The notes beneath the pieces are model-generated. The model was not told the origin of the DNA. It made no database searches and was given only the letters and a program-made list of their open reading frames with translations. 37,056 nucleotides of DNA, from NCBI GenBank assembly GCA_031269535.1, contig JAISZA010000244.1:1-37056 (forward strand), written 5' to 3'. The position numbers and the translations under genes were made by a program. Shown here piece after piece: positions 5,203 through 37,056 of the stretch. Position 1 is the first letter of the stretch. Each line of letters opens with the position of its first letter. The stretch comes from Tannerellaceae bacterium. Its GTDB lineage: Bacteria; Bacteroidota; Bacteroidia; Bacteroidales; Tannerellaceae.

Positions 5203-5208
5203 ATTCCT

Positions 5209-8226: not shown

Positions 8227-8252
8227 TCCTTGTTTATTAACGCGATATATCT

Positions 8253-10574: not shown

Positions 10575-10603
10575 AGCTTTATAATCAATAATTTATAATG
10601 TAG

Positions 10604-10615
10604 TGTTATATAACA
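10604..10615. promoter_or_regulatory. 12-bp perfect palindrome upstream of the GH9 gene
   Basis: TGTTATATAACA is a perfect inverted repeat, 30 bp before the GH9 start codon, in the 105-bp gap after beta-helix copy A. The same gap also has a tandem GAAGCATT pair near 10661-10677 on the coding strand. It could be an operator or simply AT-rich chance; no -7 promoter box was found in this gap. Confidence 0.3.
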
Positions 10616-10679
10616 TCTCGCTACAAAGTTGTACTTCGACTTGATGCAACGCTGCACAATGCTTCAATGCTTCCCGACG

Positions 10680-13600
10680 TCATTTTATGCGTACGCTAAA
10701 GAGGCGTGAGCGAGCGGTGATAAAGAGCGTATTCCCGTCTTTCCCTCCGAATTGAATCGACGAAGGGCGTTCCGGGACGTCGATGAGGCCTTTCGGTTTG
10801 CCATCCCTGTCAAAAATATAAATCTGCCCGTCGGCTACGTACAGATTTCCTTCCTTATCGACAGCAGAGCCGAACTCTCCCCATTCAACGAAGTACTCCA
10901 GGCGGGAGAGCGTACCGTCTGGCGCCACTTCCATGCGTACCATCCGCTTGTCGTACTCGTCCGAAGCATAGAAAGGTTTGCCGGGATAGGCTTCCAGCAG
11001 CGAGGAAGCGCGCGCCAGATCATACTGGTCGGGGATGATAGTCTTGCCGTCGGGAGCGACGAAGCAATATTCGGGTTTGAACATCACAACCGTATTGAAA
11101 TCGTGAAAGTCGCGCCAGCGGTTCGAAGGATAAAGTGCCTTGTGCACATTCGTAACCGAACCCATCGGCACCTTAGGCAAGGCCTTTATCGTTTCCTCCG
11201 GGTTGTTCGGGTCGATGGAATAGGCTTTTGTTTCAAAAGCGTTGTTACCGTAGCCGGCAAAGGAGGTGCCCCGTGTGTCGGGATAGGAGATAGGGCGATC
11301 CGGCGATCCGTTTACGACATAACCCGGCTGCGGGCGGTAGCGGAAGACCACCAGCAGGTTATCCTCTGTATCTACCCCTAGCGACAAAGGCTCCCAGGGG
11401 AAGTCCGACACCAGCGAAAGGGTGTTCGTTTCGACAGACCAGCGATAAATACGGCGGAAGCGTTGGTCGGAAAAGTAAATATTCCCTTTACTGTCGCGCA
11501 CTATACCTTCGGCAAATTCGAAGCCTGCGGCCAGCTGCTGCACTTTACCCACCTCGTCGGTAAGCGCCACGCGGCGTGGCTCTTTACCCGTCATCAGCAG
11601 GCGCTGCAATTCCCAGGGGCGCACTTCGATGTCCTTATTAATATCATACAGCGGGTTGTCAGTGGTGTATTTAATCTGTGAATAATTGTGTACGTGGATA
11701 AACTCGATGTTCTCGCAGTTCTCCCAGATCCGTATGGAGTAGGGATAGGGCTTGTTGATGCGGATGACGCGAAACATGTATAGGTTGGCGAAGGTGATGT
11801 CTTTGCAGCCTTCCATTTCTATTGGCTGGCATTCGGTGCCTTCGCGGCTTTCTTCCTCAAGTTGGAAGCAGAGGATTTTCCAGTTGGCGACGTTTTTGAA
11901 GCGCGCTTCGTTGCGCACGTGGTGTTCAAGCGACATGGCATAGATGCGGCCCGGGGTTGAGGTATTATTCATATACAGACCGGAGGCGGCGTAGGTGGAA
12001 GCCGTCCATACGTCTTTGATCGTCCCCCCACCTCCCTTGGTCACCCAGAGGCTCCAGTATTGATTATCCCAGGCCAGGTCCATGCCTTGGGCGGCAATGG
12101 GATTTAGGGGCGAGCTGATGCGGGGGGGCTGTGGATTGGCTCCCCGGCCTTGCGGCGGTTGGGCGCTTTCGTCCGGACGGGGTTTCGACATGCCGCCGTG
12201 TCCACCGACAAACTTCGTGTCGTTTAGATAAGATCCCTCGCCTGCCATCCACTTCACGCCTACAGCGCGGTAGTTATAAGCTCCCGTATTGATGCCTATC
12301 CCATTAAGGATGTTGGTGCCTCCTTCGGATGATTCAAGCAGTGCTTTGGGCGAGCCGAAGCCGCTGAAGGCAGGCGTACTCTCGGCCAGACGCAGCTGGG
12401 TGCCGAAAGGATGCAGTCCGATCAAATGTGTATTGAGTTTCATCTTGAGCGTTTCCGAGATGCGGTACCATCCCTGGGGAACGTAAATCACCTCGTACCT
12501 GTCGATTGCCTGCTGGAAAACTTCCGTATCGTCGGTCGTATCATCACCTTTGGCGCCCAGGCTGCGGATGTTTACCCAACTTTTCATGTTCGGCAGGGCT
12601 GGGATATCTCTTGCCAAGGCCGGCGGCAGTTTGGCAACAGGCTCCGTGTCGAGGATGGTGCGATATTCGGGGCGCGAAGTGATGTCGTCCATACGGAGCC
12701 CGTGGGCGTATTCTTTGATGCGGTACGTCTTGTGGCTCACCTTGGTTTGGGTATTGCTGCGGCGATATTGGGCCAAGACGGGGACGTTGGAGCAGTATAT
12801 GTCGCGGAAGGTGATCTGGTTGTTGCTGTTGTTTTCGTTGCTGACGACGACGACGGCCTCTTTCACATTCTCGAAACGGCTGTTCTCAACGAAGAGCCTG
12901 TCGGCATAGTTCGGGTCGATATCAAAGACCACCGGCACGTTTCGGGCCTGAAGGTTCACCATCGCCAGGCCCGATTCCTGGCAGCGAAGCGCCGCCCGGC
13001 GCTGCCCCTCAAAGTAGGAGTCGATCATGGCTACCTGCCAGCCGGGCGAGGACTTGGTGGTATAAATCCCATAATCGCCCCCATAGAAAGCGACATTTTC
13101 CATCTCATTTCCCACATCAAACAGCCCGGCTTTCCCCTTACCGATATACACCGCCACGTGACTGATAAAACTGTGCTGGGCGTAGTGCGTGCGCAGGGCT
13201 ACGGCATGCGGATTGCCGTCGGAGATACGAAGGTTGATGTTGGACATGGCACTGTAAAATGTACCGGCTCCGGCATCGCGAGGCGTCTGCCCGTCTTCGA
13301 CAATCCCGCCGGTGAACCAGAACATATAGTTCGCCTTTCCTTTATCGCCGACCACCTCCTGGTCGTATCCGGGGGCATTTTTGGCCAGAACAAACTCGGG
13401 CCTATCCTTTCCGTATCCGATCAAGCGAATGGCTCCGGGGATGTAGATGGTTTTGCTGATCAAATACTTCCCTTCAGGGATGAAGAGGATGCCGAAATTG
13501 CGCTCGCGTTTGACCTGATTAATGGCCACCTGCAAGGCTTCCGAAACGTCGGTCTTTCCATCGGCCTTTATCGGGTAGTTTTCCGGTGTAAAATAAAACG

Positions 13601-13706
13601 CCTCGGGATCGTCAGGCCGCTCCATATAGACGGATTCAAGATGCACGGCATACAGGGAAGTACACATGATGCAACCAATCGTAGCAAATAAAAATTTCTT
13701 CAACAT
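10680..13706 (-). CDS. Tandem beta-helix (pectate-lyase-3/GH55-like) plus beta-propeller protein, copy A
   Basis: A 1008-residue secreted protein with a signal peptide ending at TSLYA. The domain order is the same as in its paralogue at 5209-8226. The first beta-helix starts at IKADGKTDVSEALQVAINQV; the second starts at IRSLGAKGDDTTDDTEVF. The conserved SLEHHVRNEARF (about 593) and LEEESREG (about 616) follow, then an NHL/SMP-30-like propeller from about 720 (EGIVRDSKGNIYFSDQRF, AVDKEGNLYVADGQIYIF). Long runs are identical between the copies, such as ILFIPEGKYLISKTI and AAQG.DLAWDNQYWSLW, including the putative active-site region, so both copies are probably under functional constraint. A low-complexity Pro/Gln-rich insert (ESAQPPQGRGANPQPPR) breaks the second helix; the other copy has a shorter one. 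It is the first enzyme-like gene after the hairpin at 13721-13758. Confidence 0.8.
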   Translation of the reverse strand: MLKKFLFATIGCIMCTSLYAVHLESVYMERPDDPEAFYFTPENYPIKADGKTDVSEALQVAINQVKRERNFGILFIPEGKYLISKTIYIPGAIRLIGYGKDRPEFVLAKNAPGYDQEVVGDKGKANYMFWFTGGIVEDGQTPRDAGAGTFYSAMSNINLRISDGNPHAVALRTHYAQHSFISHVAVYIGKGKAGLFDVGNEMENVAFYGGDYGIYTTKSSPGWQVAMIDSYFEGQRRAALRCQESGLAMVNLQARNVPVVFDIDPNYADRLFVENSRFENVKEAVVVVSNENNSNNQITFRDIYCSNVPVLAQYRRSNTQTKVSHKTYRIKEYAHGLRMDDITSRPEYRTILDTEPVAKLPPALARDIPALPNMKSWVNIRSLGAKGDDTTDDTEVFQQAIDRYEVIYVPQGWYRISETLKMKLNTHLIGLHPFGTQLRLAESTPAFSGFGSPKALLESSEGGTNILNGIGINTGAYNYRAVGVKWMAGEGSYLNDTKFVGGHGGMSKPRPDESAQPPQGRGANPQPPRISSPLNPIAAQGMDLAWDNQYWSLWVTKGGGGTIKDVWTASTYAASGLYMNNTSTPGRIYAMSLEHHVRNEARFKNVANWKILCFQLEEESREGTECQPIEMEGCKDITFANLYMFRVIRINKPYPYSIRIWENCENIEFIHVHNYSQIKYTTDNPLYDINKDIEVRPWELQRLLMTGKEPRRVALTDEVGKVQQLAAGFEFAEGIVRDSKGNIYFSDQRFRRIYRWSVETNTLSLVSDFPWEPLSLGVDTEDNLLVVFRYRPQPGYVVNGSPDRPISYPDTRGTSFAGYGNNAFETKAYSIDPNNPEETIKALPKVPMGSVTNVHKALYPSNRWRDFHDFNTVVMFKPEYCFVAPDGKTIIPDQYDLARASSLLEAYPGKPFYASDEYDKRMVRMEVAPDGTLSRLEYFVEWGEFGSAVDKEGNLYVADGQIYIFDRDGKPKGLIDVPERPSSIQFGGKDGNTLFITARSRLFSVRIK

Positions 13707-13720
13707 ATTTAGAGTTCTAT

Positions 13721-13758
13721 ATAAAAAGAGGTGAAAATAGGAAATATTTCCACCTCTT
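13721..13758 (-). terminator. Rho-independent terminator-like hairpin after the DUF3823 gene
   Basis: Arms at 13726-13739 and 13745-13758 (AAGAGGTGAAAATA and TATTTCCACCTCTT) pair over 14 positions with one mismatch around a 5-base loop. On the minus strand the stem is followed at once by TTTTTAT. It begins 16 bp after the DUF3823 stop codon and ends 15 bp before beta-helix copy A, leaving almost no room for a separate promoter. It probably acts as a partial terminator or as a 3' stabiliser for the susCD part of the message. Confidence 0.8.
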
Positions 13759-13774
13759 CAAAGAAATTAATCAA

Positions 13775-14539
13775 TTATTGTATATTAAAGTTGATGACCG
13801 TATAGGGGGCATAGTTGCGCCGGATGGTGCCGACGCTTGTGCCGCCCTCGGCAATGGCTGCCATGGCGCCTACCCTGAAATAGTAATTACGCGCGTATCG
13901 GAAATAGTTTTTATTCACCTCGTCCGTCAGGTCGATGGTCAAGGTGTATGTTTCGGATGCTGCGATTACTTTGGCAGGAGAGAAGTCTTGTTTGAAGCCT
14001 CCACCTCCCGGAGTGTAGGTAGTGACCTGGTCGCCCACATAGATATCGGTATGAGCGTAGAGGCAGACGTTGCTCAGGCGGACTTCGTCTCTGCCGGCTT
14101 CCAGATTGAAGGTTGCTTTAATGGCGTTGCCTTCTTTCACGATATTTACATTCCTGACACGTATGTAGGGTGTAACTTCAAAATCCATGGTATTATTGCC
14201 TTTCTTTATAACCACTTCCTCAACAAAGAACGGATAGAAGTTGCAGGCATTGAAATCAATACTGTAGTTGCCAGCAAAGAACATATCGTCGCGAAATTCG
14301 CCGTTCTGTTTCACTACGCGCGTAAGAAGCCCGGTGGGGTATCCCAGCTCCTGAAACTGTAAGCGCGAACCGTTCTGGATATCGGTTTCCACCAATTCAC
14401 CTGTTTTGATGTCTCGGATACTTCCGTTAAAGGAAGCATTGGGGCCTTCGTAATTGTCAATCTTAAACAAATCGCATGCTGTGAGGGCAAAGGCGGCAAG
14501 GAGAATTATCAATAAATTTTTCAGTTGTAACTTAATCAT
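13775..14539 (-). CDS. DUF3823 PUL lipoprotein
   Basis: A 254-residue protein with signal sequence and lipobox Cys22 (ALTAC), followed by a beta-rich body of the DUF3823 family. This family is regularly encoded directly after susD in Bacteroidetes PULs. The N-terminal half (FNGSIRDIKTGELVETD) has the look of a carboxypeptidase-regulatory-like or fibronectin-like sandwich, and a second sandwich follows from about residue 130. By analogy with other PUL accessory lipoproteins it may bind glycan at the cell surface; that is inference. It lies 19 bp after susD in the same transcript and is followed by a terminator-like hairpin. Confidence 0.85.
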   Translation of the reverse strand: MIKLQLKNLLIILLAAFALTACDLFKIDNYEGPNASFNGSIRDIKTGELVETDIQNGSRLQFQELGYPTGLLTRVVKQNGEFRDDMFFAGNYSIDFNACNFYPFFVEEVVIKKGNNTMDFEVTPYIRVRNVNIVKEGNAIKATFNLEAGRDEVRLSNVCLYAHTDIYVGDQVTTYTPGGGGFKQDFSPAKVIAASETYTLTIDLTDEVNKNYFRYARNYYFRVGAMAAIAEGGTSVGTIRRNYAPYTVINFNIQ

Positions 14540-14558
14540 AATATCTATTGTTTTTAAA

Positions 14559-16601
14559 TTAACGACCGGGGTTGTTTGTTAAACCGCTTACACCCACGCC
14601 GGGAATATTGTAGTAATAATTCATGGTCTGGAAAGTACGGCCACCGGCAAGTACGTCGTGAAATTGTTCCATCCTGAGAAAGACATACTTTGGTTTGTCT
14701 TCCCGAAGGTCGATCAATTGCACTAAGGCATGCCTGCGGTAATTGTTGACCAAGGTATGATATTCGCGTCGGCGGAACAAATCGCCCAGGCGGAAGCCTT
14801 CGAAGGCCAATTCGATGCGGCGTTCCTTCAGGACGTTTTCGAGCGTGAGCGGTATCTGATCGGTATGCCCGGCGCGTTTGCGCAAAGCATTGATGTAAGC
14901 TGCGGCGGCCGTTTTGTCGCCGGCGCCGCTCTCTGCGACGGCTTCGGCATAGTTCAAATAAATCTCGGCTAAGCGGAAGTCTATCCAGGGCGTGTAGGAG
15001 CTGCGCTCGAGGCCGGCGATTGTTTTGTCTTCAGCCAGGTATTTCCGTACGGTGAAACCCGTAGAGGAGAAATTGGCATCGTCGCTGCTTGTCATGGTGG
15101 CAAAGCCAGAATAGCCTCCCGAGCTTTCGGCTCCGTAGGTGTAGTAGGTATTGCCGTCTTTCCCTTCTTCGGAGTAGGATTGATAGACCTTGATTTCGCC
15201 GTTTTTGGTGATCAATCCTCCCTGCATCACGATGGTTATGCCTTTGTACTTGCCGCCCGGTACGACGATACTGCCGTGCAGGCGGGCGTCTTTGTTCCGG
15301 AAAGGTTCGTAGGGGTCGTCATACTTGACGAACGGGATGGCTGCTACCTGTGCATCGAGCGGGGAGTTGGTGTTGATGAATTCATTTTCTTTCCCATCGG
15401 TGCGTGTGACTATGCTGGCGCTCTTGCCTGATCCGTTGTCGGTATAATCTTCATACAAGTCAACTATATCCAGACTGGGAGAGAAGCGTCCCCATTTATG
15501 GAAACCGGTACTGGCCTGCGAGGGGCTGTAACGAATGTCGTAATCGTGCCCCTGGTCATTGAGTTTGGTACCATCCATATACGTCTTGGCAAAAATGATT
15601 TCATCGCCCAGCGTATTCATGAACATTTCCTGGTAGTTCTTGGCAGCTTCGTCGCGGCTGGCAGGATTCGGCTTGTAGAGCGAATGCCCGGAATTATCAA
15701 TAATCGCCTTCGATGCCGAAATACACTCACCGTAGAAGAAGTCGGCCTGCGAGGCATCCATTCCTACTAATTTCAGATTGGCTGCTTCGCCGGAAAAAGT
15801 CACTCTTCCTCCGTACTTAGCAAGAGAGGCTGCATAGAGGGCTGCTCTTGATTTCAAGGCATAAGCCGCCCATTTGGTGGCGCGGTAGAGGGGATTGCCG
15901 TCATCGGAGGCGAAATTTTCCGGTGTCGGCAAATACTGTATCGCCTGGTCACATTCGCTCAGTACAAACTTCCAGGTGTCGAGTTCCGTACTGCGGGGAA
16001 TGAATAAAGGCGTGGCATCTCCGTTGTAATCATCGTCCTGAAGCCAGTCGATAATGGGGACACCACCGTAACGTTTGGCCAGCGCGAAGTAGAGATAAGC
16101 GCGAACGAAATGAGCTTCGCCCGATAAACGATTGTATTTTCCTTCGTCGATAATACCTTCGTTTTTTGCCTGCTCGATGCTTCTCAGAAAGATGGAGACA
16201 TCTCTGTTTCTGCCGTAAGCACTGATCTGATAGATTGTATTTCCGCTGATACCGGTCGTATTGCCGTCGAAGAAGGCGTAATTCCCCGGACCAATGCCGT
16301 TGCCGCTGCTCAAGATGCTTTCATCGGTATACATGGAAGTCATGACCATTTCACCGGCTCCGCCTTGCCATCCGCGACGATTGAAGCCGTAATCCGGACG
16401 GTAGTTAAAGTCTTCCATAGGGATCGCGTTGTACAAATTGGCTAAAAGTGTTTTTAAACCATTTTCGTTTGACAACAATCTATCCGAACTCATTTTTGTT
16501 AATGATTCAACTTCTAAAAAATCATCACAACTGTTGTTTAATGCCAAAAACACGATCGACATTAAAAAAATCAATTTATATTTCTTGATATTCCTTATCA
16601 T
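14559..16601 (-). CDS. SusD/RagB family glycan-binding lipoprotein
   Basis: A 680-residue outer-membrane lipoprotein: leader, lipobox Cys25 (LNNSCDDFLE), then the SusD helical TPR-like scaffold (HFVRAYLYFALAKRYGGVPI; EIYLNYAEAVAESG; RRIELAFEGFRLGDLFRR). These are family hallmarks at the expected places. It caps the SusC transporter and captures oligosaccharide at the surface. It follows susC by 12 bp. At 680 residues it is longer than many SusD proteins (500-600), with extra sequence in the middle. Confidence 0.95.
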   Translation of the reverse strand: MIRNIKKYKLIFLMSIVFLALNNSCDDFLEVESLTKMSSDRLLSNENGLKTLLANLYNAIPMEDFNYRPDYGFNRRGWQGGAGEMVMTSMYTDESILSSGNGIGPGNYAFFDGNTTGISGNTIYQISAYGRNRDVSIFLRSIEQAKNEGIIDEGKYNRLSGEAHFVRAYLYFALAKRYGGVPIIDWLQDDDYNGDATPLFIPRSTELDTWKFVLSECDQAIQYLPTPENFASDDGNPLYRATKWAAYALKSRAALYAASLAKYGGRVTFSGEAANLKLVGMDASQADFFYGECISASKAIIDNSGHSLYKPNPASRDEAAKNYQEMFMNTLGDEIIFAKTYMDGTKLNDQGHDYDIRYSPSQASTGFHKWGRFSPSLDIVDLYEDYTDNGSGKSASIVTRTDGKENEFINTNSPLDAQVAAIPFVKYDDPYEPFRNKDARLHGSIVVPGGKYKGITIVMQGGLITKNGEIKVYQSYSEEGKDGNTYYTYGAESSGGYSGFATMTSSDDANFSSTGFTVRKYLAEDKTIAGLERSSYTPWIDFRLAEIYLNYAEAVAESGAGDKTAAAAYINALRKRAGHTDQIPLTLENVLKERRIELAFEGFRLGDLFRRREYHTLVNNYRRHALVQLIDLREDKPKYVFLRMEQFHDVLAGGRTFQTMNYYYNIPGVGVSGLTNNPGR

Positions 16602-16613
16602 ATTCAGATTTTA

Positions 16614-19600
16614 TTAAAAACTTAAATTAATACCGAAATTGACAGCTTTCATGATAGGATAAGACAGACCGGCATTCCATGCGTTCTCCTGCCGTTCGGG
16701 GTCTAAATCTTTCAATTCTTTCTTCGTAAACAGCAAGAGGTTTGTACCGTTTACGAAAGCACGCAGCCTGGTAACACCTATTTTGTTGAGCACAGCCTGA
16801 GGAACAGTGTAACCGAGTTCCACATTCTTTAACCGCAGATAGTTCGCCATTGGCCTCCAGACGTCGATGGCATACGAATCGGTCGTATTATCGTAATTAT
16901 AGGGTCTTCCCGCCGGATACTTTCCGGCTATCCATTGAGTTGCAGGATCCAACGGGTTGTCTGTCGGACTGGCCGTATGCCAGCGATCTAAGAATTTTGC
17001 ATGCAAAGTAGGATAGCGTCCATATCCCCAGATATCATTCATGTGATAATTTACCGAATAGAGCGCTGCTCCTTGCAGAAGCAGGCTTAAATCCCATGAC
17101 TTGTAGCTACCATCGAAAGTAAATCCGTATTGCAGCGGAGGATTAACCCGGTTATATGAGGCGCCATCAACGGCCTCCGAGGCCCCAGAGATGTAACCCT
17201 GGTCACCATAAGCCCAGTTTACAAACAATTGGTCATCACCGCTTATCCTGCCATCGCCGTTAGCGTCTATGATACGGTATGCACCCGGCAACATCTTCGA
17301 GTTACCACGATTGCCGCCATTTAATAAGGGGACTGTTTCAAATTCGGTCAATGAAGTGAACTGTCCGTCGTAGGTATAAATCCGGTTTCGTCCGGTGAAG
17401 CGGTCTTCGTTTCCGTTGATCCATTCATCCCACTGGCTGGTAAAAGGAGCGCGTTCTACATGTAAGCGTTTGGTTCGCGCGTAGGTGGCGTTCGCTCCGA
17501 TTGTATATTTGAAATCTTTCCCAACCGTACCTCTGTATTTTAGCTGCAATTCAAGGCCGATGTTCATATCCGAATTTATGTTTTCCTGCGGGAAAGAAGC
17601 CCCGAACGTATTCGGTACGGATGATTGTCGGTTGGCAAGAATACCGGTATTCTTACGTTGGAAATACTCAAGAGTAGCACTGAATTTGTTTTTCAGGATG
17701 TCGAGGTCGGCGCCTACATTGAAAAACTTGGCCGTTACCCAGGTCATATTGTCGTTGACAACGCCCGGAGGATACATACCGGTAGTTAACGAACCGTCGT
17801 CAAATATATAGCCACGCCGATTATCCGAGATATAGGCCGCTAAATATTCGTAAGCATTGCCCTGGTCACGCCCGCTTTCGCCATAAGAAGTGCGGAGTTT
17901 AAAATTATCAACAAAGGGTGCGAGGTTTTTGAAGAATTCTTCTTCCGACACACGCCAGGCTATACTTCCCGAGGGGAACAGAACCCATCGCTTGCTTGGG
18001 GCGTAGCGATAGCTGCCGTCACGACGTAACATACCTTCAAAAATGTATTTCCCTTTGAAATCATAATTTAAGCGACCTATGAAAGCCGCATACCTCCTAA
18101 ATTCACGATTACCCGAATTTGAAGCGGTGCTTACGGAAGCCTGGTCGAGAATATCGAAGGTGAATAAATCATTATACGAACGTTGACCTCTTAAATTATC
18201 AAAACGTTCCTGGGAAGCTTCAATGGCTCCCATAAGGCTGAGCGAATGGTCGCCGAATTTTCCTGTATAATTGGCCTGGAGCTTTGTATAGGTTTTATTA
18301 TACAGTCTGATTTCATTCCAATAGCGATCTACGCCTCTGGTGAGCAGGTAAGTGTCGGTGAAATAGTCGTAGATACCATGCGAGGCTTCCTTATCCGATT
18401 CATTCCTGTTTTGTAAATCGAAAGAGCCCAATAAATTTACGCTAAAGCCGGGAAGGAAGGGTGCGGTGTACGTAAAATCTATCTGCGCATTTCCGGTGAT
18501 ATTTTCATTCCGGCGATATCCTTCCAAATCAGGGCTTATCAATGCTGCCGGATTCTTATCTTCCGGACCGACGCGGGATAAGTGTTCAGGGTTATCCAAT
18601 GTATAAGGGCCTACACCACGGTCATTTACAATGAGGCTCTTATAGGTCCAAATGAAATCTTCGTGTGCTCGTTGCCTTTTGTCCATACGGCCCGAGAACA
18701 TGACATTCATTTTAATATCGTCGCTCAGGTTGGCTGTCAGATTGCTTCTGAGCGTATACCTCCGGTAGTATTGAACATCATTCTTGAATAAGCCTTTGTC
18801 TTCATTATAACCCAGGCTGGTGTAATAGCTCACTTTTTCACCGCCACCTCTTACCGAGAACGTATGGTTTTGCACGGGCACCGCTTTATACATATACATG
18901 TCTATCCAGTCCCAGTCCTGATAGCCCGGTTCGCCGTTTCTATACTTTTCGAGCAGTTCGTCGCTATAGCGGGGAGCAGCTCCGATGTTTCTCTGGTATT
19001 CGTTTTCCATCACGCGATAGTCGTATGCGCTCACCATATCGGGCATACCGGTAGGCATTTTCGCACCGGTCAGACCGGAATAGGAGAATCGCGCTTTTCC
19101 TGCCTCTCCTTTCTTTGTCGTAACAATAATTACCCCGTTTGCTGCATTCATACCGTAAATGGCTGCCGATGCATCCTTGAGGATAGAAATGCTTTCGATA
19201 TCATCGGAGGTTAATTGCGCTAATTCGGAAACGCCGTCGCGATTGCGGACAATTCCGTCGATAACGACAACTGGTGTACCAAAACCACGGATACTGATCA
19301 TGTTGCCGAAATCACCGGGTTCGCCCGTTTGCTGGCGTATAAGCAAGCCGGCCATCTTTCCCTGCATATTGCTTATCAGATTGTCTGTTTTTGTGGTTGT
19401 AAGTTCAGCCGCATTGATGGATGACACGGCGCCGGCCAGGGTTTCCCTTTTTTGCGTACCGTAGCCTACTACAACTACCTCTTCAAGCGCCTGCGAGTCT
19501 TCTTTCATGGTGATGGAGATAGTATTCGCAGTGCCGATGCGTATTTGCTGGGTCACGTATCCGATATAGCTGACAATCAAAATCGAGTTTGCCGTTACGC

Positions 19601-20135
19601 CCGGCAGTGTGAATTGTCCGCTCACATCACTGACGGTACCAATGGCCGCCCCACTTATCTGTATGTTCACACCGATAAGCGGTTCGCCGGCATCATCGAC
19701 GACCGTACCCGTAATGGTTCGCGTTTGTTGTTGGCTGCTTACTGCCGCCGGAGTCAGTTTGCCGGCAGTGGGTTTTGTACGCGAAATAAAGATCTGCCGG
19801 TCGCTGATTACATACGTATTATCGGTAGATTTGAACAGTTTGTCGAGTACCTGATCCACCGTTTCGTTTTTCACACGGATACTGACCTTCCGGTCGGTAT
19901 CGATAGCTCCATCATAATAGAAAAAGACGAATTCACTGTTCTTTTCTATTTCAGTTAAAACTTCTTTTATGTTCTTGTTACTCAATTCTAATGTTAACAG
20001 GGTGGATTGAGAATAGGTTACTTCGGCATAACTTATTCCACTGCCTGTAATCAACGACAGAACAACAATTACCATGCACCTGACGGCATTTTTATAATCA
20101 AATCTCACTAAAGGAATCTTCTGTTGATTTATCAT
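16614..20135 (-). CDS. SusC/RagA TonB-dependent transporter with STN signalling domain
   Basis: A 1173-residue outer-membrane protein. After a signal segment (about 18-40) comes an STN/secretin-N domain (about 48-118, LELSNKNIKEVLTEIEKNSE), which in this class contacts a FecR-type anti-sigma factor. Next are a carboxypeptidase-regulatory-like domain (about 138-220, GTVVDDAGEPLIGVNIQISG), the SusC signature EEVVVVGYGTQKRETLAGAV, a plug (GNMISIRGFGTPVVVIDG, DASAAIYGMNAANGVIIVTT), and a long beta-barrel ending in FGINLSF. It imports oligosaccharides using TonB energy. The STN domain together with the upstream fecR and ECF sigma genes indicates trans-envelope induction. A -7-like box and a hairpin lie in the 119-bp gap before it. 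Confidence 0.95.
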   Translation of the reverse strand: MINQQKIPLVRFDYKNAVRCMVIVVLSLITGSGISYAEVTYSQSTLLTLELSNKNIKEVLTEIEKNSEFVFFYYDGAIDTDRKVSIRVKNETVDQVLDKLFKSTDNTYVISDRQIFISRTKPTAGKLTPAAVSSQQQTRTITGTVVDDAGEPLIGVNIQISGAAIGTVSDVSGQFTLPGVTANSILIVSYIGYVTQQIRIGTANTISITMKEDSQALEEVVVVGYGTQKRETLAGAVSSINAAELTTTKTDNLISNMQGKMAGLLIRQQTGEPGDFGNMISIRGFGTPVVVIDGIVRNRDGVSELAQLTSDDIESISILKDASAAIYGMNAANGVIIVTTKKGEAGKARFSYSGLTGAKMPTGMPDMVSAYDYRVMENEYQRNIGAAPRYSDELLEKYRNGEPGYQDWDWIDMYMYKAVPVQNHTFSVRGGGEKVSYYTSLGYNEDKGLFKNDVQYYRRYTLRSNLTANLSDDIKMNVMFSGRMDKRQRAHEDFIWTYKSLIVNDRGVGPYTLDNPEHLSRVGPEDKNPAALISPDLEGYRRNENITGNAQIDFTYTAPFLPGFSVNLLGSFDLQNRNESDKEASHGIYDYFTDTYLLTRGVDRYWNEIRLYNKTYTKLQANYTGKFGDHSLSLMGAIEASQERFDNLRGQRSYNDLFTFDILDQASVSTASNSGNREFRRYAAFIGRLNYDFKGKYIFEGMLRRDGSYRYAPSKRWVLFPSGSIAWRVSEEEFFKNLAPFVDNFKLRTSYGESGRDQGNAYEYLAAYISDNRRGYIFDDGSLTTGMYPPGVVNDNMTWVTAKFFNVGADLDILKNKFSATLEYFQRKNTGILANRQSSVPNTFGASFPQENINSDMNIGLELQLKYRGTVGKDFKYTIGANATYARTKRLHVERAPFTSQWDEWINGNEDRFTGRNRIYTYDGQFTSLTEFETVPLLNGGNRGNSKMLPGAYRIIDANGDGRISGDDQLFVNWAYGDQGYISGASEAVDGASYNRVNPPLQYGFTFDGSYKSWDLSLLLQGAALYSVNYHMNDIWGYGRYPTLHAKFLDRWHTASPTDNPLDPATQWIAGKYPAGRPYNYDNTTDSYAIDVWRPMANYLRLKNVELGYTVPQAVLNKIGVTRLRAFVNGTNLLLFTKKELKDLDPERQENAWNAGLSYPIMKAVNFGINLSF

Positions 20136-20173
20136 TTGTATTGATTTTTTTTGTAATGCTTTTTTTGTTTAAT

Positions 20174-20181
20174 CAAAACTA
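20174..20181 (-). promoter_or_regulatory. Bacteroidetes -7 box upstream of susC
   Basis: On the minus strand this reads TAGTTTTG, matching TAnnTTTG, about 40 bp before the susC start and just after the hairpin at 20189-20209. No convincing TTTG -33 element is seen at the right distance, so it could be chance in AT-rich DNA. If real, susCD would have basal expression independent of fecR transcription. Confidence 0.4.
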
Positions 20182-20188
20182 AAATTAG

Positions 20189-20209
20189 CTGCCTCTTTAG
20201 AAAAGGCAG
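20189..20209 (-). terminator. Weak hairpin between fecR and susC
   Basis: CTGCCT at 20189-20194 pairs with AGGCAG at 20204-20209 (6 bp, 9-base loop). On the minus strand a T-rich stretch follows (CTAATTTTAGTTTT). The stem is short, so this would be a weak terminator separating the regulatory genes from susC. Confidence 0.45.
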
Positions 20210-20254
20210 GCTGTGGTTTGTCTTCATTTTTTTTATTGTTCCATAGGCATTTTT

Positions 20255-21463
20255 TTATTTGTTTGTAATGATGTAAACTCCCTGATTATATTGGTACGTT
20301 ATGGACGCTATCTGAGAAATTCCGTCCAGTATGGTTTCTAATTTGTCTTTCAGGTCTAATTTCCCTGAGAATTTCATTTGTGATACTTTGGGAGAACAAA
20401 CAATGGAACAGCCATAGTAGTGGGATAAATGCTCCATAATCACTCCAAGCTGTTCACTATTATAATGGTAAAGACCGTTCTTCCATGAAATATGGTCTTC
20501 TACTTTCACGGTTTGTATCTTTGAAATACCATTACTGAATGAATACATTTCATTAGGCGATAATATAGTTTCATTCTCCTGATGAATAGTACGTACTTTT
20601 ACGCTACCTCTGACTAACACAATACGTTGGGCGTTGTCTTTTTCATAAGCCGTAATATCAAATGCAGTACCTAATACTTCCACATCCATTTCTGTTGTTT
20701 TTACAATGAATGGGCTCTGCTCGTCAGGTGATACCTCTATATAAATCTCGCCATCTACGTATATTTCCCTTTTCTTCTTATCGAAATCAACCGGATAGGC
20801 TACCCGCGTACCTGCATTTACCCATATACGGCTCCCTTCGGAAAGTGTCAGTATCGAACGTTTCCCCCAAGGGACAACTAACTGATGAAACGTCTGCTTT
20901 TTGTCGGTCGATAATTCTTTTTTCAAAACAATGTCATTATCATTTATCGTAATATTTTCTTTATTGTATGCAATCTTCGCTTCTCTTCCTCCTAAAGAAA
21001 CAGGTTTATTGCCGTCGAGATATAGCTGAATATCTGTTCCTGCTTCAAGCCGGGCATCGGTAGTAAATAATGGGGAAAAACCACTGGTGTTATCCGGAAT
21101 AATAGTCCTTACCGATAGTATAAGCGCAAACAAAGCTATCATACCCGACACAATCGAAATGATATGGTAACGTTTTTTCTTCCTCTTCATATTCGCTTTG
21201 TTGGTCACCTCGATATCTACCCATAGATTGAATATCTCTGCATCTGAAATAAACTCAGGACGAACCTGTACAGAGCGGATAAAACGGCAGGCAAATGTAT
21301 AGTCTTCCCTATCTATAAGTCCTTTTTCAAGCATTTCATTCCAATACGCCTCCGATTCCGGCTCTGAAGACAATTGTGAGGCAATAAAATTGTCATCTTG
21401 AAATAAATCATCAAAAGAATACTGCTTGCCATCGTCTTTGCGTGAAATTTCGTTTTGCATCAT
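20255..21463 (-). CDS. FecR-family anti-sigma factor
   Basis: A 402-residue inner-membrane protein. The cytoplasmic N-terminal part (1-98) is expected to hold the sigma factor. One transmembrane helix lies at about 100-120 (HIISIVSGMIALFALILSV). The periplasmic FecR domain (about 190-300) contains LTLSEGSRIWVNAGTRVAYP and EVLGTAFDITAY, and a C-terminal DUF4974-type STN-like domain ends the protein (SHYYGCSIV, LDGISQIASITY). It starts 1 bp after the sigma factor stop codon, so the two are translated from one message. It should receive the signal from the SusC STN domain. Confidence 0.95.
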   Translation of the reverse strand: MMQNEISRKDDGKQYSFDDLFQDDNFIASQLSSEPESEAYWNEMLEKGLIDREDYTFACRFIRSVQVRPEFISDAEIFNLWVDIEVTNKANMKRKKKRYHIISIVSGMIALFALILSVRTIIPDNTSGFSPLFTTDARLEAGTDIQLYLDGNKPVSLGGREAKIAYNKENITINDNDIVLKKELSTDKKQTFHQLVVPWGKRSILTLSEGSRIWVNAGTRVAYPVDFDKKKREIYVDGEIYIEVSPDEQSPFIVKTTEMDVEVLGTAFDITAYEKDNAQRIVLVRGSVKVRTIHQENETILSPNEMYSFSNGISKIQTVKVEDHISWKNGLYHYNSEQLGVIMEHLSHYYGCSIVCSPKVSQMKFSGKLDLKDKLETILDGISQIASITYQYNQGVYIITNK

Positions 21464-21464
21464 A

Positions 21465-22133
21465 TCATTTTTGTTTAATTATACTCATGTGCTTTTTCAC
21501 ATGTTGTATAGTATTACCAGTCTCATCAAATGTTTTCTTGATTTTTTTGATCGAACGTTGGATCAGGTTTTGAAGCGATTGGTAATTAATTTCCATTAGC
21601 TTACAAATCTCGTCCAGCTCCATTCCTTGTATATAACGATAATAAATAACTTCTTTCTGCCTGGGAGTCAGCGAATCTAATATTCGCCTCAGCTTTTTTT
21701 GTTCCTCTATTTCCTGTTCCTCAGCAATGAGATGTTCTTCAGTCGTATAGTCAATGCAGAAGACCGGTTCCTGCATATCAATATAATAAACGATCTTATC
21801 TTTCTGAAAAATAGTATAGAGTTCGTTTTTCAAAGAAATAAACAGATAAGCCTGTATTTGATTGACATGCCTCAGATTCGGGCGCTTACTGTATAGCTCT
21901 ACAAAAACGTCATGGATACAATCCTTCACCAATTCTCTATCGGAAGTAAACCTCATTCCGTAAGAGAAAAGCACCTTCACGTATTTCTGATAGAAATACG
22001 CGTAGGCCTCATCGTCTCCTGAAACAAACTTTTCCCAGAACACTGTGTCTTCTTGACTATGTAATCCTCGAATCATTGTCTTCCTTGTAATTTTCTGTTT
22101 GTTACAAAAGGAATATTTCGTCTGCCCGGACAT
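21465..22133 (-). CDS. RNA polymerase ECF-type sigma-70 factor
   Basis: 222 residues from the ATG at 22133; an internal ATG at 22076 (MIRGLHSQED) would give 203 residues and fits the usual start of the family. Region 2 is visible (EAYAYFYQKYVKVLFSYGMR, ELVKDCIHDVFVELY), as is the helix-turn-helix of region 4 (LTPRQKEVIYYRYIQGMEL, EICKLMEINYQSLQNLIQRS). It pairs with the adjacent FecR and most likely activates this PUL. A TAnnTTTG match at 22165-22172 gives a short leader to the 22133 start, which is why I keep the longer form. Confidence 0.95.
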   Translation of the reverse strand: MSGQTKYSFCNKQKITRKTMIRGLHSQEDTVFWEKFVSGDDEAYAYFYQKYVKVLFSYGMRFTSDRELVKDCIHDVFVELYSKRPNLRHVNQIQAYLFISLKNELYTIFQKDKIVYYIDMQEPVFCIDYTTEEHLIAEEQEIEEQKKLRRILDSLTPRQKEVIYYRYIQGMELDEICKLMEINYQSLQNLIQRSIKKIKKTFDETGNTIQHVKKHMSIIKQK

Positions 22134-22581: not shown

Positions 22582-22800
22582 TTAAAGCCTATGGGTGATT
22601 TTTCTGTAAATCATCTTTGTTGCAAAGTCTGGTTTGAATTTATAGAGCAGGTTCATGGTCTTTGAATCCTTGCCTATATACAAGCGTTTCCGGCCTTGTT
22701 CCATTGCCCGTATGATTATTTCTGCGGCAATGGCAGGCGATAGTGCCAGGTTCGTATCTTCAGAGACATCGGAAGCGCTGATACCGGCTTCTTTGCCCAA
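22582..22800 (-). pseudogene. C-terminal remnant of a short-chain dehydrogenase/reductase
   Basis: The minus strand encodes about 72 residues ending at a TAA at 22582-22584. The part SPAIAAEIIIRAMEQGRKRL, then YIGKDSKTMNLLYKF, then FATKMI matches the end of SDR-family oxidoreductases that commonly stand beside AraC regulators in Bacteroidetes. The Rossmann fold and the YxxxK active site are missing. Upstream sequence stays open a little further (to about 22860) but shows no recognisable SDR motif and runs into the AraC gene start. It is probably a deletion remnant; a small expressed protein is unlikely. Confidence 0.7.
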
Positions 22801-22861
22801 TTCGGAAAAGACAAAAAGGAGTAATAATTGGGCGATAATCCGTTTTATACGTATTAATACA

Positions 22862-23764
22862 ATGAATAGTCATATATTTATCGAAAAATTGCTCATGACA
22901 AAAACAATAGCATACTTTAACTGGCATACAGCACTGGAAAATACGAATGTAGGCGCCATTGATGAGGATTTCATCTTACTTGAAAAGCCTGTTCTCATAC
23001 CTGTATCCTCCAATCCTTTCAAAGCAGATGTTACTACCGTCGTGATTTGCCTCAAAGGAACGACGGAAGGAACTATTAATCTGAAACCGTTCAAAGCGGA
23101 AGCGCCTTGTTATGTTGTGATATTACCAGACCAGATTTTAGAGCAAAAATATTTCAGTGATGATTTCTCGGGGCTCTTTATTATTATGTCGAAACAGTTT
23201 ACGGATAATCTGTTGCCCAATGCACAGAAAAAACTTCCCTTGTTTCTTTCCGTGCAGGATAATCCATGTCATTCTTTAGGCCAGGAGGCACTGGAAGGGA
23301 TGATATCGTATTTCGAGATGCTGAAAAGAGTCATGAATATAAAAGAAATTCCCGGCAGGATAGAAGTAGTAAGACACCTGACACTGGCATTTTTCTATGG
23401 ACTGGAATTTAGCATTCATCCGCAAACCGAAAATAAAGAGAAATCAAAAAACGAACTACTTGTGGAAAGATTTATGGATCTGGTACAGAAACATTATAAA
23501 CGACAACGGCTTGTGAGCTTTTATGCCGACAAACTATGTCTCACTCCTAAATACCTCTCGAAAGTAATCAGGAATACAAGCGGCAAATCGGCCAGCGACT
23601 GGATTGACGACTACATCATATTGGAAGCCAAGGCGCTGCTCAAATCAGGGAATATGACTGTGCAACAAGTCTGCAATGAATTGAATTTCAACGACCAGTC
23701 ATTCTTCGGAAAATACTTCAAACGACACACCGGTATGTCGCCAAGGGAATATAAAAGGAAGTAA
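22862..23764 (+). CDS. AraC-family transcriptional regulator
   Basis: 300 residues from the ATG at 22862; an alternative start at 22895 gives 289 residues (MTKTIAYFNW). The frame is open farther upstream, but that part is antisense to the SDR remnant and lacks family features. The N-terminal half is a cupin-like effector domain (VVICLKGTTEGTINLKPFKA). The C-terminal 100 residues carry the two helix-turn-helix motifs of AraC proteins (SFYADKLCLTPKYLSKVIRN; VQQVCNELNFNDQSFFGKYF), ending GMSPREYKRK. In this family such genes often regulate the divergent SDR gene; here that partner is a remnant, so the regulator may be an orphan. A palindrome GTATTAATAC (22851-22860) directly precedes the start. 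Confidence 0.92.
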   Translation: MNSHIFIEKLLMTKTIAYFNWHTALENTNVGAIDEDFILLEKPVLIPVSSNPFKADVTTVVICLKGTTEGTINLKPFKAEAPCYVVILPDQILEQKYFSDDFSGLFIIMSKQFTDNLLPNAQKKLPLFLSVQDNPCHSLGQEALEGMISYFEMLKRVMNIKEIPGRIEVVRHLTLAFFYGLEFSIHPQTENKEKSKNELLVERFMDLVQKHYKRQRLVSFYADKLCLTPKYLSKVIRNTSGKSASDWIDDYIILEAKALLKSGNMTVQQVCNELNFNDQSFFGKYFKRHTGMSPREYKRK

Positions 23765-23861
23765 TAAAACCCACATCACCCTATAAGAATGTTCATTCCG
23801 GCTGGATATACATTTATTATCACTTCCAAAGGGATGGGTGAGAGTAATTCATTCGGATCAG

Positions 23862-24346
23862 CCCCCTCTGAATTTCAGGGGCGGGAAATTCGTTTGGATT
23901 ACTTCTCCCGGAAATTCTGGAGAAGCGAAATCATTTCATTTTGTCTTTCCAGAATTTCTGGAGAAGCAAAATCATTTCATTTTGTCTTTCCAGAATTTCT
24001 GGAGAAGCAAAATCATTTCATTTTGTCTTTCCAGAAATTCTGGAGGAGCAAAATCATTTCATTTTGTCTTTCCAGAAATTCTGGAGAAGCAAAATCATTT
24101 CATTTTGTCTTTCCAGAAATTCTGGAGGAGCAAAATCATTTCATTTTGCCTTTCCAGAAATTCTGGAGAAGCGGAATCATTTCATTTTGTCTTTCCAGAA
24201 ATTCTGGGGGAACTAAATCATTTCATTTTGTCCTCCCGGAAATTCTGGGAAAACTAAATCATTTCATTTTGTCCTCCCGGAAATTCCGGAGAAACCAGCA
24301 TGTTTCATTTTGTCCTCCCGAAAATTCCGGAGGAGCTAAATCATTC
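23862..24346. repeat. 41-bp tandem repeat array, about 12 units, with paired inverted repeats
   Basis: The core GAAATTCTGG or its variants recur at 23870 (diverged), 23911, 23952, 23993, 24034, 24075, 24116, 24157, 24198, 24239, 24280 and 24321, an exact 41-bp step. The typical unit holds two inverted repeats: CCAGAA-A-TTCTGG, and CAAAAT-CATTTC-ATTTTG. Both arms of the first stem change together in some units (CCAGAA/TTCTGG in the middle, CCGGAA/TTCCGG at 24280). Outer units differ most and central units least. The array fills the space between the convergent AraC and Nudix genes and stops about 14 bp before the Nudix stop codon. All three plus-strand frames are open because the unit lacks stops; I regard those readings as not coding. 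Confidence 0.95.
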
Positions 24347-24359
24347 CGGCTCCCTTGAA

Positions 24360-24950
24360 CTATGGTGTAATCTTCTCCATTATGGGAAAGACTATCGCTT
24401 GCTCCGACAGATATTTCCAAAGGGGAGCAACCATCAGCGCCTGTCGGATTTCGTCGGCAAACAAGAGGGCTTTGACTTCGTCTATCGACAACAGATGTAC
24501 GGACAGGTCTTCCGATTCTTCCAGTTTCTGTTCGCCTATTTTCTCTACATCTTTTGCCAGGAAACAATGTGTCAGATTGGTATGCGTACTGGCATTGGGA
24601 GAGATATGCATGTATTCTTCCCAAATGCCGTTTCCGTATCCTGTCTCTTCCAGTAATTCCCTTTGCGCTGAAATGAGAGGCGTAGCATCTTCCTTTTCGC
24701 AAACGCCGGCGCATAGCTCAAACCGTGTTTCCTTTATTCCATGGCGGTATTGCTTTACGAAAACAAATTGCTTCTCTTTCGTTATGGCAATGATATTCAC
24801 CCAATCGGGATATTCCAATATATAATAAGAAGGGATGCGGTTTCCATTAGGTAGTTCCACACATTCCCGCCGTACGGTAAGCCAGGGTTCCCGGTGCAGG
24901 TATTCGCTTTTTATAACCTTCCAGCCGGCTTCTTTTACTTCTGTATTCAT
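24360..24950 (-). CDS. Nudix hydrolase, ADP-ribose pyrophosphatase type
   Basis: A 196-residue cytoplasmic enzyme. The Nudix box is GVCEKEDATPLISAQRELLEETGYG; its core RELLEETGY fits REUXEEXGU, with one extra residue between the leading Gly and the Arg compared with the standard spacing. The N-terminal strand layout (KVIKSEYLHREPWLTVRREC, WVNIIAITKEKQFVFVKQYR) is that of nucleotide-sugar pyrophosphatases, which hydrolyse ADP-ribose-like compounds with Mg2+. Its ATG overlaps the stop of the SNF2 gene (ATGA at 24947-24950), so the two are probably translationally coupled. Confidence 0.92.
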   Translation of the reverse strand: MNTEVKEAGWKVIKSEYLHREPWLTVRRECVELPNGNRIPSYYILEYPDWVNIIAITKEKQFVFVKQYRHGIKETRFELCAGVCEKEDATPLISAQRELLEETGYGNGIWEEYMHISPNASTHTNLTHCFLAKDVEKIGEQKLEESEDLSVHLLSIDEVKALLFADEIRQALMVAPLWKYLSEQAIVFPIMEKITP

Positions 24951-34530: not shown

Positions 34531-35229
34531 ATGGAAATTAGAGAATACGAGAATCTTATCATATCAAAACTAAAAGATGTTGTAGATTCAATTATAATAA
34601 ATAATCCTGAGTTAAATATATCAGCAAAAGCAAGAGCCGGAGCTGAGATCAGTGATTGGCTGGAAGAAAAATTTGTGGAGCTGACACAAAATCATGATTA
34701 TTTTGAAAACTCAGAATCTGCACCCAAAGGAAGCACAAAAAATCCTTGGGATGCAAGAACTGTTTTCAAATGGAATGACATTAGAGAAGAGATATGGATT
34801 GACTTTAAAGCTTTTAAAATTACAAGTGCTGATAGTAATCCAGATATTGGTACCCCCAATAAAATCTTTAAATTAATCAGAGAAGGGAATTTTTACCATG
34901 CATTTATCCATGTATTTTATCAATCTAAAGGGAATGGTTTAGAATTTGTCAATTACAATGATAGTTATTCAAAATTATATTTCATCAAAGACATTAGTTC
35001 AACATTCAGAAGAAATCCCAAAAATCAACTTCAGGTCAATATCTCATCACCTACTGAATATAGAACAAGAGAAGATTTTATAAAACTGCTTATAAAAAAG
35101 ATCAAAGAAAGCCATATAAGACAAATCGAAATATCCAATAGAGCATTAAAAGAAATAGACCAAACAGAAAGCAAGCTTATTGAGGCAAATAAGAAATCAG
35201 AGGAAAAGCTGATTAAAAAGATTCAATAG
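34531..35229 (+). CDS. Probable type II restriction endonuclease, PD-(D/E)XK fold
   Basis: A 232-residue soluble protein, not recognised at family level. A PD-(D/E)XK-like set can be seen: Glu39 in AGAEISDWLEEKF, Asp74 in NPWDAR, then Asp91 and Lys93 in EEIWIDFKAFK. The C-terminus (about 195-232) is a Lys/Glu-rich helix. Function is inferred from this motif set and from the adjoining methyltransferase gene, with which it overlaps tail-to-tail by 17 bp. The gene is extremely AT-rich (11 G+C of 60 at 34561-34620), unlike the genes to its left, which suggests transfer. The 198-bp gap before it holds no clear promoter match; TACCTTTA at 34465-34472 is one base off the -7 box. Confidence 0.7.
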   Translation: MEIREYENLIISKLKDVVDSIIINNPELNISAKARAGAEISDWLEEKFVELTQNHDYFENSESAPKGSTKNPWDARTVFKWNDIREEIWIDFKAFKITSADSNPDIGTPNKIFKLIREGNFYHAFIHVFYQSKGNGLEFVNYNDSYSKLYFIKDISSTFRRNPKNQLQVNISSPTEYRTREDFIKLLIKKIKESHIRQIEISNRALKEIDQTESKLIEANKKSEEKLIKKIQ

Positions 35230-36928
35230 ACTTCTGTATTGTTCTGATTTCATCTTTATTCATATCAAAAGCAGAATATATAAGATGATTAATCTCACAT
35301 ATTCTGCTTTCTGTATTTTTGTTTTGGTATATCTCTTCAACAATACCTGTTATTTTCTTTCTTAAATTCGTATCGGTTGGGATGGGTAATGTATATAAGT
35401 CCGACACCTTAATTTGTGGTTGCTTACCCTTTGAATATCTGATAATATTCATTTGCTGAGCATAGAATGTGGCTATATCAGAATTGAAATAGCCGCAAAG
35501 AAATTTCAGAAAATCTGTTTGATAAGTATCATTCCCTCTTAAAGAGAAGACATAAAGACTGTTATTTGCCGCACTTGGCCATTCGTCATAGGATGCTATA
35601 ATTTCTTTTGCAGATTGTCTGATATAAATTTTCGGATTATCGTATATTACAGTTTCTCCAAGCCCCAATCTCTTCTTATTTTTTATTCCTTTTTGCGTCA
35701 ATTCTTCTCTCAGCCTATCATTTATATCATTCTGAAGAGTCTTATTATAGTGAAAATATTTTGAATATTGTAAATCTGCAAATTTTGCAGACAAACCTTT
35801 AGAACCCTGATAATAAGGATATACCCTGGAGCCAAAATCTTTCTTTTCTTCATTAAACACAAAAACAGATTCCATATCCAGTAACATTACACACGTTCTG
35901 AGATTTTTATTTGGATACAGTTCCTTTAATTGTGGAAATTTAAATGACGATATTTTATTAATAATATTGAGTTTTTCGGTAGAGCCATTAAATCTGAATC
36001 TGTATTGATCTGCTGGATTCATCCATTGCTTTTGATCTACAAGTATAACTTCATTTGTTTCTGAATTGATTATTTCAACAAAATTACTGCTTACTTTTTC
36101 TTTCTGAATTGTAAGAATTAACTGTCCGCTAACTACATCAAAACAGCTTATATTGATTTCTATACTTATTATTTTTGTGTGTAAAAGTAAAAACTTTCTT
36201 GTGTATTCATACGCAGTTTCAAAAAAAGAGAGGTCGATAATAAAGCTTAGAATCCCACCTTCTTTTAAGAAATCAACTGAATGTTCAATAAATAGCATGA
36301 CATAATTGATTTTCCCGTTTTTCAAAGTCTCAGGGAACTGAGAGTAATTAGTCAGATAATAAATTCTCTGAATCTCATTTTTCTTCCGATCCCGTCTGCC
36401 ATAAAGTGATACATAAGGAGGATTTCCTATGATATAATCTATCTCATTCAATATATTTTTTAAGGGGCTAATAAAAATATCATCCGGGAACAAATCATTT
36501 TGTTTAACCATGATTCGTTTTGTAAAATCATAAACAAATCCATTAAATCTACCTTTATAGTCTATTCCAAATCTGTTCTTAAACCAAGCCGAAATATTCG
36601 CTCTGGTTTGCCCGACCATATCTTTTTCAATATCAATAAAGAAAACAGAGTTTTCAATAAAGCTATAAGCTTTATCAACATCACAATATCTTAAAATCTT
36701 TTCAAGTAAACGGATTATAAAGATACCATTTCCACAAGAGGGTTCTAAAAATTTTTTGTTCAGAATATATGCATCATCAAAGTTGATGTTTGCCAAAATT
36801 TTATCTACAACACGAATATCATTTGTAAAAAAAACACCAAAATCTTTTTTATAAGAATCAGAGAATTCACTTTCCAAATTCTTTTGTTTATATATAATGC
36901 TCTGTGAATCCATGTCTGTCATACCCAT
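35213..36928 (-). CDS. N6-adenine DNA methyltransferase, gamma class with target-recognition domain
   Basis: 571 residues from the ATG at 36928. Motif I is FLEPSCGNGIFIIRL (about 61-75) for S-adenosylmethionine binding; motif IV is IIGNPPYVSLYG (about 167-178), the NPPY of adenine methyltransferases. The C-terminal half is a target-recognition domain (AANNSLYVFSLRG; LCGYFNSDIATFYAQ; LYTLPIP). The order resembles M.TaqI/Eco57I-type enzymes, and it should protect the site cut by the neighbouring endonuclease. The frame is open to an ATG at 36982, but that start would overlap the end of the upstream gene (stop at 36951-36953) and include the -7 box at 36938-36945, so a start at 36928, 36922 or 36913 is preferred. 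Confidence 0.9.
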   Translation of the reverse strand: MGMTDMDSQSIIYKQKNLESEFSDSYKKDFGVFFTNDIRVVDKILANINFDDAYILNKKFLEPSCGNGIFIIRLLEKILRYCDVDKAYSFIENSVFFIDIEKDMVGQTRANISAWFKNRFGIDYKGRFNGFVYDFTKRIMVKQNDLFPDDIFISPLKNILNEIDYIIGNPPYVSLYGRRDRKKNEIQRIYYLTNYSQFPETLKNGKINYVMLFIEHSVDFLKEGGILSFIIDLSFFETAYEYTRKFLLLHTKIISIEINISCFDVVSGQLILTIQKEKVSSNFVEIINSETNEVILVDQKQWMNPADQYRFRFNGSTEKLNIINKISSFKFPQLKELYPNKNLRTCVMLLDMESVFVFNEEKKDFGSRVYPYYQGSKGLSAKFADLQYSKYFHYNKTLQNDINDRLREELTQKGIKNKKRLGLGETVIYDNPKIYIRQSAKEIIASYDEWPSAANNSLYVFSLRGNDTYQTDFLKFLCGYFNSDIATFYAQQMNIIRYSKGKQPQIKVSDLYTLPIPTDTNLRKKITGIVEEIYQNKNTESRICEINHLIYSAFDMNKDEIRTIQKSIESF

Positions 36929-36937
36929 TTTAGTATG

Positions 36938-36945
36938 CAAATATA
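36938..36945 (-). promoter_or_regulatory. -7 box for the methyltransferase gene
   Basis: The minus strand reads TATATTTG, a TAnnTTTG match. Transcription would begin near 36932, which leaves almost no leader for a start at 36928 and about 20 bases for a start at 36913 (MDSQSI). Confidence 0.5.
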
Positions 36946-36950
36946 GGTAT

Positions 36951-37056
36951 TTATTTCGGTATGCTGAAATCCTTATCGGCAAATAAGGCGGCTAAGCCTG
37001 ATATCTGTTTATACCGGAGCACTTCGTCTTTATCCATGCCTATATGCTTCATAATC
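36951..37056 (-). CDS. C-terminal end of an upstream gene, possibly ParB-like (partial)
   Basis: Reading in from the right edge on the minus strand gives 34 residues and a stop at 36951-36953: MKHIGMDKDEVLRYKQ, then ISGLAALFADKDFSIPK. The sequence has clear coding character and resembles from memory the end of ParB-domain proteins in which a MxxDEVLRxKQ helix precedes an LF..REFS ending. The family call is tentative because the catalytic domain is outside the window. It lies 22 bp before the methyltransferase start. Confidence 0.6.
   Translation of the reverse strand, partial: IMKHIGMDKDEVLRYKQISGLAALFADKDFSIPK

Follow-up and report, generated by a model that had tools for sequence, protein, structure and literature searches.

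The array between the AraC-type regulator and NUDIX hydrolase genes

The window analysed here, a stretch of 37,056 nucleotides, belongs to a Tannerellaceae genome represented by a metagenome assembly of 251 contigs with 87.5% completeness (G000). Between the convergent genes of an AraC-type regulator and a NUDIX hydrolase, both of which lie outside the element, it contains a tandem array of 41-bp units (Table 1), which was called by TRF at 23911-24345 with a period of 41, 10.6 copies and a score of 616. Eleven core units could be anchored, the last of them decayed and cut off, and one decayed unit or leader precedes them on the left; since the array sits in a metagenome assembly, this unit count is uncertain. 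The initial annotation had described about 12 units at an exact 41-bp step, with two inverted repeats per unit and a convergent gene setting, and all of this was confirmed.

Table 1. Coordinates of the array, its parts and the adjacent genes in the window
Feature	Position	Strand	Remark
AraC-type regulator (HTH_18)	22766..23764	+	left convergent neighbour
Decayed left unit or leader, GAATTTCAGGGGCGGGAAATTCGTTTGGATTACTTCTCC	23862..23903	.	resembles the left edges of two further arrays of this genome (G000), C216 and C138
Core palindromic array, 11 units	23904..24345	.	exact 41-bp step
Core unit starts	23904, 23945, 23986, 24027, 24068, 24109, 24150, 24191, 24232, 24273, 24314
Dyad 1 (example), CCAGAAWTTCTGG / CCAGAATTTCTGG	23990..24002	.	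one per unit
Dyad 2 (example), CAAAATCATTTCATTTTG	24008..24025	.	half a period from dyad 1
NUDIX hydrolase	24360..24950	-	right convergent neighbour

Typical units in the window each carry both inverted repeats. When the consensus unit is rotated and compared with its own reverse complement, 73% of the positions agree, a value reached by 16 of 20,000 letter shuffles, and a BLAST comparison of the array with its own reverse strand gave a match of 72% over 318 bp. As in the other arrays described below, whose units measure 40-43 bp, the entire unit forms a single imperfect palindrome, and its two dyads are offset by half a period; in the window, the dyads therefore necessarily recur every half period, i.e., about every 20.5 bp. 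In the core, the units match the consensus at 95-100% (identity 0.98), with a drop to 0.61 at the right end, in agreement with the earlier remark that outer units are more diverged. It is the whole unit that repeats, and the units differ from each other by a few point changes. As a series of head-to-tail units longer than 10 bp without spacers, the array belongs to the tandem minisatellites (VNTR class).

Several other assignments were rejected. The array is not a CRISPR array, as the whole unit repeats and no unique spacers lie between constant repeats. The plus strand is open in three frames over the array, which is explained by a stop-free repeat unit and is no sign of a gene. Rfam yielded no match above the gathering score, with the sub-threshold matches being chance matches of mostly microRNA-like families, and phage, plasmid and viral collections yielded no match to the array. 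Elsewhere in the window, a polysaccharide-utilisation-type locus (3262-22133) encodes an ECF sigma factor, FecR, SusC-like and SusD-like proteins, two pectate-lyase-like proteins (one of them Pfam-tested) and a GH9 glycosidase. At the window end (34531-36982) lies a restriction-modification pair with overlapping ends, consisting of a SwaI-like endonuclease (+) and an Eco57I/TaqI-type methylase (-).

Occurrence and genomic placement of related arrays

A search of the genome and its relatives for the unit, as proposed in the initial annotation, revealed three more arrays of the same family in G000 (at C216, C111 and C138). In a sample of 20 contigs of this genome, two arrays of another palindromic 41-bp family were present as well (L112:435-751 and L129:16836-17046). 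Over 458 bp, the arrays at C216 and C138 can be aligned at 84%, whereas their flanks cannot be aligned, showing that at least one whole array block has been duplicated into another locus whose flanks are unrelated. It is mainly on this one clear whole-array copy that the mobility of the arrays rests.

Using a covariance-model search with the two-unit model R1, arrays were found in 19 of 125 Tannerellaceae genomes, all of them in two genera. One array (L003) had entered the underlying alignment A1 in arbitrary orientation, as loci were given in contig orientation; this is harmless for the model search, since the unit is near-symmetric. Nearly all matches in relatives had a TRF period of 41-43 bp (38 in one weak match), with differing letters, as illustrated by the units of G118 (CCGGAAAATCCGG + AAAAAGCGCGCTTTTTT), G115 (AATCCGGAAATTCCGGATT + AAACAGGTCTGTTT) and G111 (CCCGGAGCTTCCGGG + AAAAATTCTGTGGAATTTTT). 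Thus, the letters of the unit vary between arrays and species, and period and symmetry persist. Essentially no arrays were present in the sampled relatives from the window's own genus (G006, G010 and G013), in the other genera sampled, or in about ten other families of the order. Downstream of the NUDIX homologues of G016 and G004, an array is absent.

To count arrays without a sequence query, 0.82 Mb (27%) of a complete relative genome (G106; 3.01 Mb, 56% GC) were read. With array counts depending on the TRF settings, this part contained 183 arrays with a period of at least 15, of which 116 had a period of 40-43 bp (7, 42, 62 and 5 arrays at 40, 41, 42 and 43 bp, respectively). Arrays of 40-43 bp and of multiples of that period made up 4.3% of the DNA read, and few arrays had other periods. 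Extrapolated to the whole genome, this would correspond to about 430 arrays. A comparable array density was found in 100 kb examined of G018. In some Tannerellaceae of gut and mouth, arrays reach a density of up to about one in every 6-7 kilobases. The 116 arrays fall into 66 sequence families of up to 10 members. Edge units were worse than inner ones in 80 of 94 arrays examined.

Repeats of other kinds were noticed alongside. In G106, two long AT-rich gaps (L083:12243-13757 and L091:9839-10733) consist of 42-bp palindromic units that have decayed and are organised in higher-order blocks; both gaps terminate with the same 41-bp AGCAACTAAGAG array. A second class of 22-bp units in the same genome has the form GGCGC-loop-GCGCC, joined by ATAACTACC, with one palindrome per unit (L078:506-5773, L090:19296-19587 and L077:9558). 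On contig 1 of G029, a 77-bp tandem repeat is present in about 40 copies with 70% matching (L208:12078-15173). Four of the palindromic arrays, at C111 and C138 of G000 and at C66 and C23 of G009, are located at contig ends. Draft genomes lose arrays at such ends, and the arrays may interrupt the assembly of short reads from these bacteria, so that they may be undercounted.

The arrays avoid genes and ignore gene orientation. According to a simple codon-usage gene caller made for this analysis, 126 of 132 arrays overlap coding sequence by at most 5%, with 72% of the DNA being coding. Among gaps longer than 100 bp, 31% of the tandem, 34% of the divergent and 36% of the convergent ones bear arrays, so the convergent setting of the window array is not meaningful. 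In tandem gaps, for which it is known which strand is transcribed, mismatched stem pairs on the sense strand were G-U in 111 and A-C in 119 cases, and predicted RNA folding did not favour the sense strand (46 of 85, p 0.38). In addition, no terminator-like site, i.e., a G+C-rich hairpin followed by a T run, was found within 23600-24500 of the window. The lack of a G-U excess, of a folding bias and of a terminator-like site together indicate that the palindromes are kept by something acting on DNA.

Symmetry of the units and compensatory changes

Units fold better than shuffled units, with mean z values of -2.6 in G000, -2.0 in G018 and -1.0 for the 116 arrays of G106. The self-complementarity of the whole unit averages 0.539 in G106 compared to 0.459 in shuffles (z 18.5), with a z of 7.0 in G000. 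Taken singly, 38% of the G106 units pass as palindromes at p 0.05 and about 60% are individually non-significant; symmetry is therefore a strong tendency and not a rule.

The initial annotation had argued from units in which both arms of the first stem change together. Such changes to G-C do occur in two units of the window, accompanied by two G-T intermediates. Within arrays generally, however, compensatory double changes match the shuffle expectation (4 vs. 4.0 and 19 vs. 18.5), and as a general rule the within-array argument fails. It follows that the force on the dyads is exerted when arrays arise or on a long time scale. Compensatory arm changes do appear when related arrays from different loci are compared: in 60 such pairs, drawn from 24 families, there were 34 double changes of stem pairs, compared to 11.5 expected, and 82% of them were still Watson-Crick, compared to about a third by chance. 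Since family members are not independent, resampling was done by family; this bootstrap gave a 1.9-3.7 times excess and a Watson-Crick share of 0.55-0.95, with seven families contributing. An example is the pair TTGCGGGGCTCCCGCAA and TTGCAACGGTGTTGCAA, in which the remainder of the unit is nearly unchanged. In a dimer alignment across species, both sides had changed in 51 cells compared to 28 expected (0 of 500 shuffles), a result to be read with the caveat of relatedness. Templated correction of quasi-palindromes, in which one arm is copied from the other, is an established process, and both selection on symmetry and templated arm copying would produce the between-array compensation. What stands of the earlier argument is that either selection or a templated process acts on dyad symmetry, at the level of DNA and not of RNA.

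A search for a responsible factor linked no enzyme or protein with the arrays, whose distribution is followed by neither Y1 transposase nor SbcD nor MutS2. For the hairpin nuclease SbcD, loss was rejected as a cause, as a match over the cut-off was lacking in 8 of 19 array-positive and 37 of 106 other genomes, and the array-dense G018 has SbcD. MutS2 does not separate array-rich from array-poor genomes, being present in both, with the incomplete G000 as the exception. Intrinsic curvature could be dismissed as well, since A-tracts show no phasing at 10-11 bp. Y1 genes were found once each in G000 and G106 (L190:15060-16250 and L189:8700-9700). They are flanked by a separate palindrome family of the GCCCAGGGCGAAACCCTGGGC type (CCCAGGGC...GCCCTGGG, GGGCGAAACCC), resembling REPs around a RAYT.

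Interpretation and comparison with known systems

Taken together, these observations make it somewhat more probable than its negation (roughly 0.55) that the window array is one member of a genome-wide intergenic class of palindromic satellites which is mobile or self-amplifying and acts at the DNA level. Arrays of this class would expand and contract where they stand, through slippage or unequal exchange, and would spread as blocks into other gaps. The dyads might be kept because a step at the DNA level depends on fold or symmetry and is indifferent to the letters; candidates for such a step are the extrusion of hairpins on single-stranded DNA, the correction of an arm with the other as template, and a dimeric protein reading shape. 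As a sharp length of 40-43 bp across unrelated sequences calls for a ruler, unit length would be set by a ruler that spans about four helical turns and works regardless of sequence, and the dyad at every two turns suggests that this ruler is a protein or an enzyme. A more far-reaching version, for which the odds appear clearly lower, has dedicated machinery make or keep the satellites: a structure-reading enzyme or protein that needs dyad symmetry, measures about four helical turns irrespective of sequence and through which hundreds of unrelated arrays can come to occupy several percent of a genome.

An ordinary neutral minisatellite, arising by chance tandem duplication and slippage with symmetry as a by-product of hairpin seeding, is an unlikely explanation. 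Edge decay, locus-specific units and the missing compensation within arrays would all fit it, whereas slippage by itself would not be expected to yield either the sharp period over unrelated sequences or the compensatory arms between arrays; adding templated arm correction would account for the compensation, but not for the period. The initial annotation had named absence from relatives, combined with no excess of compensatory changes, as pointing to this explanation: relatives do carry such arrays, and compensation is absent within arrays and clear between them.

Rather improbable, too, is a nucleoprotein scaffold, in which a dimeric, sequence-tolerant nucleoid protein would sit on each dyad every two turns on one DNA face and the arrays would be kept for chromosome organisation or silencing. 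In its favour are the period close to four turns, the offset of the two dyads by half a period, the intergenic and orientation-free placement and a symmetry that persists under sequence change. However, with 66 unit families counted in one quarter of a single genome, no common recognition sequence is left, A-tracts are unphased and sampled species of the same genus do without arrays. The phased protein-binding array proposed earlier is conceivable only in a form that is not sequence-specific, and it lacks A-tract phasing.

Movement in trans by a Y1 (RAYT) transposase, as for REP or REPIN-type elements, is very improbable: extragenic palindromes with compensatory arms and the single Y1 genes in G000 and G106 are compatible with it, yet these genes are flanked by a different palindrome family, and the array-bearing drafts G009, G018 and G008 gave no Y1 match. 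Least credible is the previously suggested bidirectional terminator or RNA-decay block: the hairpin-capable array does lie between convergent genes in the window, but arrays show no preference for convergent gaps, no sense-strand bias in pairing or folding and, in the window, no terminator-like site.

Of the three roles put forward originally, the selfish repeat family is thus the best supported, given the further arrays in the same genome and in relatives and the array copied between loci, and the initial interpretation as a whole is partly supported. Within the preferred reading of a DNA-level satellite class, we lean towards a self-amplifying element, selfish or neutral.

The arrays are bacterial intergenic minisatellites of a new variety. 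No published description of them was found in the literature searched, and they are not mentioned in the passages searched of the BU063 single-cell genome paper (PMC3925233). By form they are intergenic tandem arrays with decaying edge units, which they have in common with minisatellites of the MIRU/VNTR type. MIRU/VNTR-type minisatellites of bacteria are likewise intergenic with edge units that decay; to our knowledge, they have neither a strict common unit length nor a palindromic architecture common to unrelated sequences, unlike the arrays described here, which share both. In integron attC sites, fold and symmetry are also conserved with the sequence being free, but these are single-copy recombination sites beside cassettes, and no integron context was noticed in this analysis. 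Nearest in kind are the BrickBuilt element of Porphyromonas gingivalis and the REPINs, and the defining features of both fail here. BrickBuilt is a MITE with a 23-bp unit and leader/tail segments of up to about 300 nt with terminal inverted repeats, which is always intergenic and differs in copy number between strains (PMC4596501). It is likewise a dispersed, intergenic tandem minisatellite without spacers in the Bacteroidales (PMC4596501). The window array has a period of 41 instead of 23, the class comprises many sequence families of a palindromic 40-43 bp unit, and no leader/tail segments with terminal inverted repeats were found, the copies at C216 and C138 sharing nothing past the decayed array ends. 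REP, BIME and REPIN elements have conserved REP cores, occur mostly as doublets with an associated RAYT, and are multi-copy, hairpin-forming extragenic palindromes with reported compensatory changes, as are the present units (PMC3116915). The arrays differ from them in being long and tandem, in having no conserved core (66 families in 116 arrays) and in that the local RAYT genes accompany another palindrome family.

Bacterial minisatellites are usually treated as locus-specific accidents, and eukaryotic satellites are often described as sharing unit length and symmetry but not sequence. The hundreds of arrays in one genome, with a common unit length and mirror symmetry and no common sequence, parallel the latter description and raise a concrete question, namely what measures 41-42 bp of DNA and requires a palindrome.
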